From a bacterium (GTDB taxonomy: Bacteria; Electryoneota; Electryoneia; Electryoneales; Electryoneaceae): a stretch of DNA of 64,000 nt. Both the position numbers and the translations under genes were made by a program. Positions 8,224 to 41,906 of this stretch are shown piece after piece; the stretch's first letter is position 1, and each line of letters opens with the position of its first letter. The notes beneath the pieces are model-generated. The model worked only from the letters and a program-made list of their open reading frames with translations, was not told the DNA's origin and made no database searches. The DNA lies in contig JAHLLH010000004.1 of NCBI GenBank assembly GCA_020444265.1, forward strand, positions 186,001-250,000. The letters are read 5' to 3'.

Positions 8224-8468
8224 GGTGACTGGTACACCATCTTCCCAATGGGAAGATGGTTTCCATCCCCAGCAGAGTGCCTGGGAGAAAAAGTTGGTGC
8301 TTCACGGAGTGTACCTGTCACCTGTGTATGGTTAGCGACGAACGATCTGTTCCACTTCGCCCGAGACCAGGTGACCGGTACACTCGATGCGAATACCTGT
8401 TCCGAAGGCCAGTACTTCTGTCAATGGGGATAGGATCGCTCGTTACCCGACGTTGTGTACCAGTCACC
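8224..8468. repeat. Nested inverted-repeat element, copy A (245 bp)
   Basis: Four 14-bp arms in nested order: GGTGACTGGTACAC (8224-8237), GTGTACCTGTCACC (8309-8322), GGTGACCGGTACAC (8370-8383) and GTGTACCAGTCACC (8455-8468). The outer pair is a perfect inverted repeat; the inner pair has one mismatch. Outer-to-inner spacing is 71 bp on both sides. The left spacer holds its own hairpin (CCATCTTCCCA/TGGGAAGATGG). It fills the gap between secD and the dsrE-like gene, both on the minus strand. Related copies are at 26176-26386 and 41690-41906. Confidence 0.85.
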
Positions 8469-22882: not shown

Positions 22883-25333
22883 ATGGCCGCGAACTCCGCT
22901 GTCGACTCAAGCGCAAGCCAGCCGGAAGCCAATGCCATTCCCGATGTCCTTCCGCTCTTCATGCCGAAGGATCTCATCATCTACCCCGGCCTGATTGTCC
23001 CGCTTTCCATTTCGGATGACGATGTGGTCAGCATGGTGGATGATGTGATGAAGAAGGGATCGCGCATCCTCGGCGCCTTCCTTCGCAAACCTGATTCGAA
23101 AGACGGTGATCCCAACGGGACCTATCGTCTCGGAACCGCCATCACCATCCACCGCATGCTGCGTGTCGGTGATGGTACCATCCGGATGATTGTACAGGGC
23201 CTTGAACGGATTGAGCTGAAAGAGATCGTTGACGAGAAGCCATACGTGACCGCCGAGGTCGAAGTTATCCCGGTCAAGACACGAAAGACGGTTCGCCTCG
23301 AGGCAATGAACCGTGCGCTGATCGAAGACTTTGATAAGATGGCCGAGCTGACCCCGGATATGCCGGAAGAATTCAAGCTCGCTGTTCACAACCTGGACGA
23401 TCCGGGTAGCCTGGTTGACCTTATCGCTTCCAACCTCGACCTTGATCCGCCTGTTCGGCAGCAAGTACTCGCAACGATTGCCGTGCCGGATCGTATCCGT
23501 CTGATGCGTCAGCTGATCGACAGAGAATTGCAGATTCTTCAACTCGGTAACAAGATCCAAAGTGCGACACGGGGCGAGATCGAAAAGTCCCAGCGCGAAT
23601 ACTACTTGCGTCAGCAGCTTCGCCAGATCCAGAAAGAGCTGGGAGAAGAGGAAGAGGGTGGCGAAGCCCTTGAGTGGCGTAAAAAAGTAGAAGAAGCGGA
23701 CCTGCCGGAACGAGTTCTTGAAGTTGCGGAAAAGGAGATGGAACGTCTCGAGCGCATCAACCCCGCGTCCGCCGAGTACTCCGTGGTTACCACCTACCTC
23801 GACTGGCTGATTTCCCTTCCGTGGGAAACCATGTCCGAGGATAATCTCAACCTCGACCACGCATTCGATGTGCTTGAGGAAGACCATTACGGCCTACAGG
23901 ATATCAAGGACCGCATCATCGAGGTGCTGGCTGTCCGCAAGTTGAAGCCGGATGCCCAGGGTCCGATCCTTTGCCTGGCAGGCCCCCCGGGAGTCGGGAA
24001 AACATCTCTTGGGCAGTCGGTCGCTCGTGCGATGAACCGTGAATTTGTCCGCATCAGCCTCGGTGGCGTGCGTGACGAAGCGGAAATCCGTGGCCACCGC
24101 CGTACCTATGTCGGTGCGCTGCCGGGACGGATTATCCAGGCGCTCAAGAAAGCAAAGACACGCAACCCGGTCTTCATGCTGGATGAGATTGACAAGCTGG
24201 TCAGCGATTTCCGCGGCGACCCCTCCTCGGCCCTGCTCGAGGTGCTCGACCCGGCGCAGAACAGCACCTTCTCGGACCACTATGTCGAGATCGATTTCGA
24301 CCTCTCGAAGGTCTTCTTTGTGACCACGGCGAACTACCTCGAGAACATCCCGCCACCCCTGCGTGACCGTATGGAGATCATCCGTCTCCCCGGGTACATC
24401 ACTGAGGAGAAGGTCCAGATCGCACGTCAGTACCTCGTGCCGCGCCAGATCGAGCGGAATGGCTTGAAGAAGAAACAGATTTCGATCCACAAAAGTGCCC
24501 TCGAGGATATTGTCGTTTACTACACACGTGAGGCGGGGGTTCGTAACCTGGAACGCGCCATCGGGCAGGTTTGCCGTAAGGTGTCACGCAAGGTGGCAAC
24601 CGTTGAAAACCAGCCGAAGGTGACCGTGACACGGAAAAATCTGCATGAGTTCCTCGGTCCTAAAAAGATCACCCCATCCTGGGCCTCTCGGAAGTCGTCG
24701 GTTGGTGTCACCAATGGCTTGGCATACACGCCGTACGGCGGGGATACGCTGAAGATCGAAGCGCAGCTGATGCCCGGCAAGGGCGGTATGAAGATCACCG
24801 GTCAGCTTGGTGATGTGATGAAGGAATCGGCTCAGATCGCGATGTCCTGGATCCGTGCCAACCAGAAAAAGCTGGGGATCAAGCCGGAAACGTTCCAGAA
24901 GTACGACCTCCATATTCATGTGCCGGAAGGTGCCACCCCGAAGGATGGCCCATCGGCGGGTGTTTCGCTTACGACCTCACTTGCATCGATCTATACCGGA
25001 CGGAAGGTGCGGAGCGATGTGGCGATGACCGGTGAGATCACCTTGTACGGTCATGTGCTGCCCATCGGCGGTCTGCGTGAAAAAACTGTCGCCGCCAACC
25101 GTGCCCGCATCGATCATGTTATCATCCCGTGGGACAACCAGAAGGACCTGGAAAATGTCCCGGATGATGTGCGTTCCGATGTCGAATTCCACCCGGTGAA
25201 GGAAGTGGAAGAAGTGCTCGAAATTGCCCTCGAACCGGCACGGAAACCGCGCAACACGTCCTCGAACAATGGGCACAGCAAGACGAAGACGGCTACGAAA
25301 AAGTCACCCAAACAAGAGGCAGTGGAAGCATGA
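22883..25333 (+). CDS. lon: ATP-dependent Lon protease
   Basis: 816 residues, full length. The N-terminal substrate-binding domain begins LPLFMPKDLIIYPGLIVPLSI; a coiled region (REYYLRQQLRQIQKELGEEEE) precedes the AAA+ module with Walker A GPPGVGKT (Lys373) and Walker B FMLDEID. The C-terminal serine protease domain carries the Ser691-Lys734 dyad (DGPSAGV and GGLREK). A basic Ser/Thr/Lys-rich tail (SSNNGHSKTKTATKKSPKQ) follows the domain. It degrades damaged and regulatory proteins in the cytoplasm. Its stop overlaps the nfo start by 4 bp (ATGA). Confidence 0.98.
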   Translation: MAANSAVDSSASQPEANAIPDVLPLFMPKDLIIYPGLIVPLSISDDDVVSMVDDVMKKGSRILGAFLRKPDSKDGDPNGTYRLGTAITIHRMLRVGDGTIRMIVQGLERIELKEIVDEKPYVTAEVEVIPVKTRKTVRLEAMNRALIEDFDKMAELTPDMPEEFKLAVHNLDDPGSLVDLIASNLDLDPPVRQQVLATIAVPDRIRLMRQLIDRELQILQLGNKIQSATRGEIEKSQREYYLRQQLRQIQKELGEEEEGGEALEWRKKVEEADLPERVLEVAEKEMERLERINPASAEYSVVTTYLDWLISLPWETMSEDNLNLDHAFDVLEEDHYGLQDIKDRIIEVLAVRKLKPDAQGPILCLAGPPGVGKTSLGQSVARAMNREFVRISLGGVRDEAEIRGHRRTYVGALPGRIIQALKKAKTRNPVFMLDEIDKLVSDFRGDPSSALLEVLDPAQNSTFSDHYVEIDFDLSKVFFVTTANYLENIPPPLRDRMEIIRLPGYITEEKVQIARQYLVPRQIERNGLKKKQISIHKSALEDIVVYYTREAGVRNLERAIGQVCRKVSRKVATVENQPKVTVTRKNLHEFLGPKKITPSWASRKSSVGVTNGLAYTPYGGDTLKIEAQLMPGKGGMKITGQLGDVMKESAQIAMSWIRANQKKLGIKPETFQKYDLHIHVPEGATPKDGPSAGVSLTTSLASIYTGRKVRSDVAMTGEITLYGHVLPIGGLREKTVAANRARIDHVIIPWDNQKDLENVPDDVRSDVEFHPVKEVEEVLEIALEPARKPRNTSSNNGHSKTKTATKKSPKQEAVEA

Positions 25334-26172
25334 TTCTTGGTGCTCACGTCAGCACGCAGGGGGGAGTGGACAACGCTCCGGCGAATGCCGAAGAGCTTGA
25401 CATCAAAGCGATCCAGATCTTTTCGAAGAACCAGCGGCAATGGGTAGCCAAACCTCTCGAAGAGGAAGCGGTCAACCGCTGGCACGAGGAGATGAAACGG
25501 GTCGGGATCACTCATCAGGTGTCGCACACCTCCTACCTGATTAACCTCTGTGCACCGGACGATGAGAAACGGGAAAAATCTCTTGACTCGTTGGTGGATG
25601 AACTCGAGCGAGGCGAAAGGCTCGGCCTGACACATGTTGTGCTCCACCCCGGCAGCCACCTGAAGGAAGGTGAGGAGTGGGGACTGACCAGGATTGCCGA
25701 GTCGCTTGATATTGTGCACGAGCGCACTGCCGGGTTCAAGGTGAAGGTGGCCCTCGAGAATACCGCAGGACAGGGCACCAACTTGGGCTACACCTTCGAG
25801 CACCTGAAATCGATCATGGAGCAGACCAGGGAGCATGAACGGCTGGCGGTCTGCTATGACACCTGTCATGGATTCTCGGCGGGCTATGACCTCCGTACGA
25901 AAGAAGTCTATGAGCAGACCTTCTCGGAGTTCGACCGGATTGTCGGCATTGACCGTCTGCAGCTCTTCCATTTGAACGACACCAAGAAAGAATTCGGCAG
26001 CAAGAAGGACCGTCATGACCACATCGGCCAGGGAGGCCTCGGCCTCGATCCCTTCCGTTTTCTGCTTGCCGACCCGCGCTTTGAGAAGGTCCCCGGCTAC
26101 CTTGAAACCCCCGAAGACGACCTCGGTGGCTACGAGTACGACTTGAAGCTTTTGCGCGAGATGCAGGTCTGA
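25330..26172 (+). CDS. nfo: Endonuclease IV (AP endonuclease)
   Basis: 280 residues, normal size. A TIM-barrel AP endonuclease with the zinc-ligand motifs of the family: HTSYLINL near residue 66, VLHPGSH near 105, LENTAGQGTNLG near 140, YDTCHGFSAGYD near 175, LFHLNDTKKEFGSKKDRHDHIGQG near 215. It cleaves 5' to abasic sites and processes oxidised 3' ends. Translation is probably coupled to lon by the ATGA overlap, which places DNA repair and proteolysis on one transcript. Confidence 0.97.
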   Translation: MILGAHVSTQGGVDNAPANAEELDIKAIQIFSKNQRQWVAKPLEEEAVNRWHEEMKRVGITHQVSHTSYLINLCAPDDEKREKSLDSLVDELERGERLGLTHVVLHPGSHLKEGEEWGLTRIAESLDIVHERTAGFKVKVALENTAGQGTNLGYTFEHLKSIMEQTREHERLAVCYDTCHGFSAGYDLRTKEVYEQTFSEFDRIVGIDRLQLFHLNDTKKEFGSKKDRHDHIGQGGLGLDPFRFLLADPRFEKVPGYLETPEDDLGGYEYDLKLLREMQV

Positions 26173-26175
26173 ACA

Positions 26176-26386
26176 GGTGACTGGCAGACGCTATTTGCAG
26201 AAGTCGTGTGCTGATCAACGCTGCTTTGCCTGGCCTGACCAATAAATGTCTGTTCAGAGTGTACCTGTCACCGAGTGTAAGCGATGGTGACAGGTACACT
26301 CGTTTTTTCAACCGATTTCATCGCCCATGATTTCTCGCTGTATCCCTGAGTGTCGCGCTTTCCCCCGGTGATGTGTACCAGTCACC
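26176..26386. repeat. Nested inverted-repeat element, copy B (211 bp)
   Basis: Arms: GGTGACTGG at 26176-26184 (the left arm is degenerate over its last 5 bases), GTGTACCTGTCACC (26259-26272), GGTGACAGGTACAC (26286-26299) and GTGTACCAGTCACC (26373-26386). The inner pair is perfect with a 13-nt loop and is followed by CTCGTTTTTT, so it can act as a terminator for hsp20-lon-nfo. Spacers between outer and inner arms are 69 and 73 bp. The element begins 4 bp after the nfo stop. Confidence 0.85.
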
Positions 26387-41689: not shown

Positions 41690-41906
41690 GGTGACTGGTA
41701 CGCCCTGTTGCGGGGTGCATCGAAGGGTTCCAGCTGCTGCTGATTGCGGATTGGGTGAGGTGGCTGGATGTTCCGAGCGTACCTGTCACCATTCGAAGCA
41801 GGAAGTTCGGTGACAGGTACACTCGGCGCCCTGACATGCATCCTGCTAAACCCTTGAGTATCAGAGGAAACCTTCAGCACTGATAAGATTGTGTGAACCA
41901 GTCACC
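41690..41906. repeat. Nested inverted-repeat element, copy C (217 bp)
   Basis: Arms GGTGACTGGTACGC (41690-41703), GCGTACCTGTCACC (41777-41790), GGTGACAGGTACAC (41809-41822) and GTGAACCAGTCACC (41893-41906). Spacers between outer and inner arms are 73 and 70 bp; the inner loop is 18 nt. It lies in the divergent gap between the M24 peptidase and the symporter genes. Arms match copies A and B, while spacer sequence does not. Confidence 0.85.

Follow-up and report, generated by a model that had tools for sequence, protein, structure and literature searches.

Inverted 14-base ends at a set distance around nearly free interiors: a family of dispersed, probably REPIN-like units in a bacterial genome

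What kind of element keeps four 14-base arms at nearly constant distances in three separate intergenic places, while the DNA between the arms differs from place to place? The question is raised by a stretch of 64,000 nucleotides (hereafter the window), corresponding to C1:186001-250000 of an assembly of 4,329,111 bases in 19 contigs that is 94% complete. The original prediction placed twelve arms here in three copies, and all 12 are present at the expected positions, with outer-to-inner distances of exactly 71/71, 69/73 and 73/70 bp. Two types of arms can be distinguished, the T-arm (GGTGACTGGTACAC) and the A-arm (GGTGACAGGTACAC), and a unit consists of a T-arm, 69-73 bp of interior and the reverse complement of an A-arm. 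The six units of the window form three back-to-back pairs (Table 1); 7 of the 12 arms are exact, and the remaining 5 carry one or two changes. In unit 3a the identical change is found at both ends, so that pairing is preserved. Arm-like sites with at most three mismatches number 23 in the window, compared with 8.0 ± 2.5 in shuffled sequences, none of 100 shuffles reaching 23. Element 1 is neighbored by SecD and a DsrE-like gene, element 2 by deoxyribonuclease IV (gene 25330-26172, with unit 2a beginning 4 bp past its stop codon) and a 115-aa ORF, and element 3 by an M24 peptidase and a sodium/proline symporter-like gene. No common theme is evident among the genes adjoining the three elements, and no known RNA families were found in window positions 7900-42200.

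Table 1. Units of the three window elements and the regions of their facing A-arms (window positions; z, folding score)
Feature	Position	Strand	Arms and details	Interior (bp)	Fold z
Unit 1a	8224-8322	+	T-arm 8224-8237; A-arm 8309-8322	71	-4.8
Element 1, gap between facing A-arms	8323-8369		47 bp
Unit 1b	8370-8468	-	T-arm 8455-8468; A-arm 8370-8383 (one change, GGTGACCGGTACAC)	71	-3.6
Unit 2a	26176-26272	+	T-arm 26176-26189 (two changes, GGTGACTGGCAGAC); A-arm 26259-26272	69
Element 2, facing A-arms	26257-26301		perfect 17-bp hairpin on folding
Unit 2b	26286-26386	-	T-arm 26373-26386; A-arm 26286-26299	73	-2.9
Unit 3a	41690-41790	+	T-arm 41690-41703 (..ACGC, GGTGACTGGTACGC); A-arm 41777-41790 (..ACGC, GGTGACAGGTACGC on minus strand)	73	-3.2
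Unit 3b	41809-41906	-	T-arm 41893-41906 (one change, GGTGACTGGTTCAC on minus strand); A-arm 41809-41822	70

The window elements belong to a larger family, as a genome-wide arm search recovered 28 copies with the fixed spacing and inverted arms. These units occupy 15 loci of the 4.33-Mb genome; the count of 28 is a reading of all arm places, and copy numbers rest on the genome search. For the exact 14-mer there are 36 genomic sites versus none for the reversed control, and a search for paired arms yielded 20 units versus none. Copies of the 12-bp arm core number 49 in this genome and 0-3 in any one of 38 further genomes from the phylum. When the 28 units were used to build a covariance model, it recovered all of them together with one more distant unit at C10:3001-3095 (E-value = 0.016), produced only chance-level matches (E-value of 0.19 or worse) in the 38 other genomes, and detected no decaying or decayed copies. 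Exact paired arms were sought in 60 relatives, viral contigs and a collection of 84,980 species; a single unit from Chryseomicrobium, the only species matched in the collection, was retrieved. Literature searches with the arm sequences gave only unrelated matches among the titles listed. All 15 loci are intergenic according to a codon-usage gene call, as had been proposed for the window copies, and a gene 3′ end lies within 12 bp at six of them and within 30 bp at seven.

The geometry of the family is narrowly constrained. Units are 97-101 bp long, and the distance between arm starts ranges from 83 to 87 bp (84 in 11 units, 85 in six, 83 in five, 87 in five and 86 in one). A T-arm is combined with an A-arm in all units but the one at C9:664490, where both arms are A-arms. 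In ten tail-to-tail pairs, 13-47 bp separate the facing A ends. Pairs of the kind first described in the window thus do exist, but the basic element is the unit rather than the pair, because solo units occur at C9:664490, C12:44921, C18:79569 and C19:9205. An additional A-arm is found in the cluster at C10:160758-161062, where it precedes the next A-arm by 83 bp in direct orientation. The interior of the atypical unit within this cluster (C10:160882-160978) includes, on the minus strand, GTGACCGTTAC and also matches C10:3119-3144 over 26 bp, and this unit is possibly a hybrid of two repeat families.

The two 14-base ends of a unit form an imperfect stem of 13 pairs with one conserved mismatch, closing a loop of about 70 nearly free bases. 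On the strand that starts with the T-arm, 13 positions of the ends are paired, and position 7 is mismatched in 27 of the 28 units (T.T in 25, T.G in two), being paired only in the A/A unit. Changes in the arms are coordinated: ACGC occurs with GCGT (three units), ACCC with GGGT, and the outermost T with the outermost A. Overall, 98.1% of cells pair, five cells are altered on both sides, and the covariation score was reached in none of 500 shuffles. These compensatory changes indicate pairing of the arms into a stem, in which the T.T mismatch is conserved. Folding as single-stranded DNA, which had been suggested as a check, agrees with this: four window units fold with their arms paired (z from -2.9 to -4.8), and the consensus fold comprises the arms only. 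Within a lone arm self-complementarity is limited to GTG/CAC. Immediately inside the A-arm, 26 of 27 units have GA, mostly as CCGA or CAGA, and 10 of 27 have CCGA outside the T-arm, one base away. No GTRG/GTAG tag was found at the arms, the conserved flank being CCGA.

The interiors are strikingly different, with a mean pairwise identity of 27-30% versus 94% for the arms. Interior-versus-interior BLAST gave no more matches than shuffled sequences did, in agreement with the proposed absence of similarity between spacers; however, a weak signal in the same orientation remains. The mean interior alignment score is about 7 standard deviations above dinucleotide shuffles in that orientation only, 34 interior positions hold 5.2-5.8 bits of column information versus 2.85 expected by chance, and A is present at interior position -18 in 20 of 27 units. 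No conserved fold was found in the interiors (mean z about 0), and searches with 16 of them retrieved no source elsewhere in the genome except for the 26-bp stretch of the atypical unit noted above. The possibility that left and right interiors of one element are inverted copies of each other was rejected, as they are less alike than average. On the genome strand, left and right interiors have concordant GC skews despite the opposed directions of the units (r = 0.74, permutation p = 0.003), and interiors also correlate in skew with their flanks (r = 0.57, p = 0.01). Since the skew follows the genome strand and not the orientation of the unit, the interiors have either drifted in place or represent local DNA. 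This compositional evidence, as distinct from a dated comparison, suggests that they drifted where they lie. In the C1:15366-15804 cluster, all three interiors are strongly G-rich on the genome plus strand (GC skew 0.65, 0.47 and 0.33), with flanks at -0.06.

As movement by a REP-associated tyrosine transposase (RAYT) had been one of two original proposals, we looked for Y1 transposase genes flanked by the same arms. The genome has three Y1 genes above the Pfam cut-off, all matching the NCBIfam REP-associated tyrosine transposase model, one scoring well over its curated cut-off, one at it and one below. RAYT-type genes are therefore present, but none is so flanked: arms of the family (GGTGACWGGTACAC) were not found around the three genes in this 94%-complete assembly, each of them having other flanking repeats, and tblastn revealed no RAYT genes at the arm sites of relatives. 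Only related arms were found, AGTGACAGTTACTA at the RAYT gene on C10 and GGTGACAGGCACC in Chryseomicrobium. The C10 gene has GTGACAGTTAC hairpins on both sides, and 10 of the 14 bases in its arm are as in the A-arm. Among dispersed copies of the GTGACAGTTAC repeat, some have arms 26 bp apart and three have them 61-63 bp apart around unrelated spacers; coordinated changes are seen in C10-type copies as well (GATAATTAG or GTTAATTAG). At C6:34582, C12:22899 and C16:545325, 27-bp palindromic arms (GATAATTAGTGACAGTTACTAATTATC and variants) lie 61-63 bp apart around unrelated spacers, and within any one element the arm copies all show a single variant, as though they had changed in concert. The ends AGTGACTGTTTC and GTGACAGTTACGCTCG mark a bridging subfamily, in which they lie about 82 bp apart unless the unit is interrupted; this subfamily retains the T/A asymmetry and links the arm type of the family with that of the C10 RAYT gene. 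Arms 113 bp apart instead of about 84 are seen in one bridging unit, at about C10:3001-3251. It contains GACACTGAAGTGTCGGGCCAG, the palindrome also found flanking the RAYT gene on C2, and has the appearance of a repeat into which another was inserted. Bridging-subfamily arms at about C1:6229 and C6:70480 lie next to yet another dispersed palindrome, CCCGGGCAACAAGATTGCCCGGG. The RAYT gene of Chryseomicrobium has inverted GGTGACAGGCACC units on both sides, and the GGTGACAGGTAC unit of that species has interior sequence in common with the GGTGACAGGCACC units of its genome. A GTGACAG core is common to the arms of the family, the arms at the RAYT gene of its own genome and GGTGACAGGCACC. The link to RAYT enzymes is one of arm similarity, short of proof of a shared enzyme. 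In a genome of the same taxonomic family (G006:C71), a Y1 transposase gene has TTAGGGACAGACCCCTATTATT hairpins on both sides, which represent another Y1 repeat family, with a GGGACAG core.

Taken together, we consider it probable that the family represents non-autonomous REPIN-like (TIR-type) miniature elements of a Y1/HUH transposase of the RAYT kind, their mobility being inferred. The predicted REP/RAYT class thus fits best, although no RAYT with these arms was found and the arms are not strict REP palindromes. In the proposed scenario, when the strand is single, as in replication, a RAYT-kind Y1/HUH transposase would recognize the mismatched stem, perhaps together with the CCGA foot outside it, and would cut and re-join the strand, so that units are copied around the genome. 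Such an enzyme would read the ends and the length but not the loop, and the loop may have drifted as a consequence. The family would be a long-standing resident whose own transposase gene has been lost, is missing from the assembly, or might be the C10 RAYT with its hairpins of related arms. No target-site duplication of 2 to 8 bp was detected in 27 units or 8 pairs. This fits a RAYT-type origin, because Y1/HUH transposition (as in IS200/IS605) is expected to proceed without target-site duplication. Against it stand the arms, which are not self-palindromic and have no GTRG tag, and the lack of a RAYT gene with the exact arms in the 94%-complete assembly or at arm sites of relatives; nor was an empty site seen.

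The same observations bear on two further views of the family. Inverted ends, constant length, a body of about 100 bp and dispersal in one genome are what one would expect of MITE-like remnants left by a DDE (cut-and-paste) transposon whose terminal inverted repeats measured 14 bp. However, there is no target-site duplication, the bodies are unrelated, as they would not be in recent MITE copies, and both ends change in coordination with the mismatch retained, which makes such an origin highly improbable. It is also very unlikely that ends were placed around local resident DNA, with interiors being host sequence at a set distance that never had a common ancestry. Unrelated interiors with the strand bias of their surroundings agree with this, but their weak common signal and the length held at 69-73 bp suggest descent or a shared constraint, and we know of no mechanism that frames resident DNA with ends at a set distance.

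A more serious alternative is that the arms are host sites, either for a DNA- or RNA-binding protein or as an mRNA 3′-end structure, selected locus by locus at a distance of about 84 bp (about eight helical turns), with the interior serving for spacing only; they might be formerly mobile repeats that were co-opted. The contrast in identity between arms and interiors, the lack of decayed copies, the spacing peak at 84 and the location just past stop codons all argue for it, as does the strand-following GC skew, by which units look old in place with their arms intact. Conversely, helical phase is not strict, given that the spacing ranges over 83-87 and is 87 in five units; the compensatory changes are indicative of a paired strand rather than of double-stranded sites; the family is confined to one of 39 genomes of the phylum; and the genes next to the window elements lack an evident theme. 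We regard this alternative as unlikely on balance but retain it because it better explains the intact arms. A protein-binding array with fixed phasing, the second of the original proposals, may likewise apply.

Indeed, intact arms are the difficulty for the RAYT-type origin that we prefer. With interiors far more diverged than the arms, apparent drift in place and no decayed copies found, past copying alone leaves the intact arms unexplained, and something appears to hold the arms at loci whose interiors seem to have drifted. A bolder and quite doubtful extension is that the ends are selected working sites, of which only the two arms and the distance of about 84 bp are read: a formerly mobile family would have turned into a host system of fixed-geometry sites, bound for example by a domesticated HUH protein. 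Populations of REPINs are regarded as very long-lived, and what maintains them is an open question. By combining near-identical ends with near-saturated interiors, the present family sharply separates the conservation of ends from the age of copies. It also poses the question of whether units are gained and lost, as in a mobile family, or fixed, as in a host function, and adds a phylum that has been little studied to the range of Y1-associated repeat families.

The known systems most like the family are Y1-associated repeats. A DDE-transposon MITE would have a target-site duplication and a shared body, both absent here. REPINs consist of two REPs that together form a hairpin (Bertels and Rainey 2011, PMC3116915; PMC8049555). 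Similarly to them, the units have conserved inverted ends, two per unit and separated by a set distance (71 bp in the commonest type of P. fluorescens SBW25, about 84 here), a diverse spacer, compensatory ends, intergenic dispersal, copy numbers from a few dozen to hundreds and a tendency to cluster; REPs have likewise been reported near gene 3′ ends (PMC3733652). Unlike in REPINs, the ends are not GTAG-tagged self-palindromes, left and right ends differ by the fixed T/A, spacers are near random rather than merely less conserved, and a RAYT bordered by the same ends was not found in the assembly. Because two defining features, a GTRG-tagged palindromic REP at each end and a RAYT with the same ends, were looked for and not found, we call the family REPIN-like and not REPIN. 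In the TIR families of Y1 transposases (TIRYTs/TIRtrons; Di Nocera et al. 2013, PMC3733652), inverted ends of Y1 genes, which need not be self-complementary, are dispersed in moderate abundance and occur as dimers and clusters. The present family resembles them in its dispersed inverted ends, which occur as dimers and clusters and are not GTAG REPs. The GGGGWSAS motif found in the ends of many, not all, TIR families (PMC3733652) is matched at 7 of 8 positions by GGTGACAG and at 6 of 8 by GGTGACTG, not exactly; here, in contrast to TIRYTs, no Y1 gene in the assembly is bordered by these ends, the nearest being that of Chryseomicrobium with GGTGACAGGCACC. Finally, the C10 GTGACAGTTAC and Chryseomicrobium GGTGACAGGCACC repeats differ in arm spacing (26 and 61-63 in the former, 34 in the latter, not 84) and lack the T/A asymmetry, but both share with the family inverted arm pairs and a GTGACAG core followed by AC, and the C10 repeats additionally have copies with an unrelated spacer of near-constant length.
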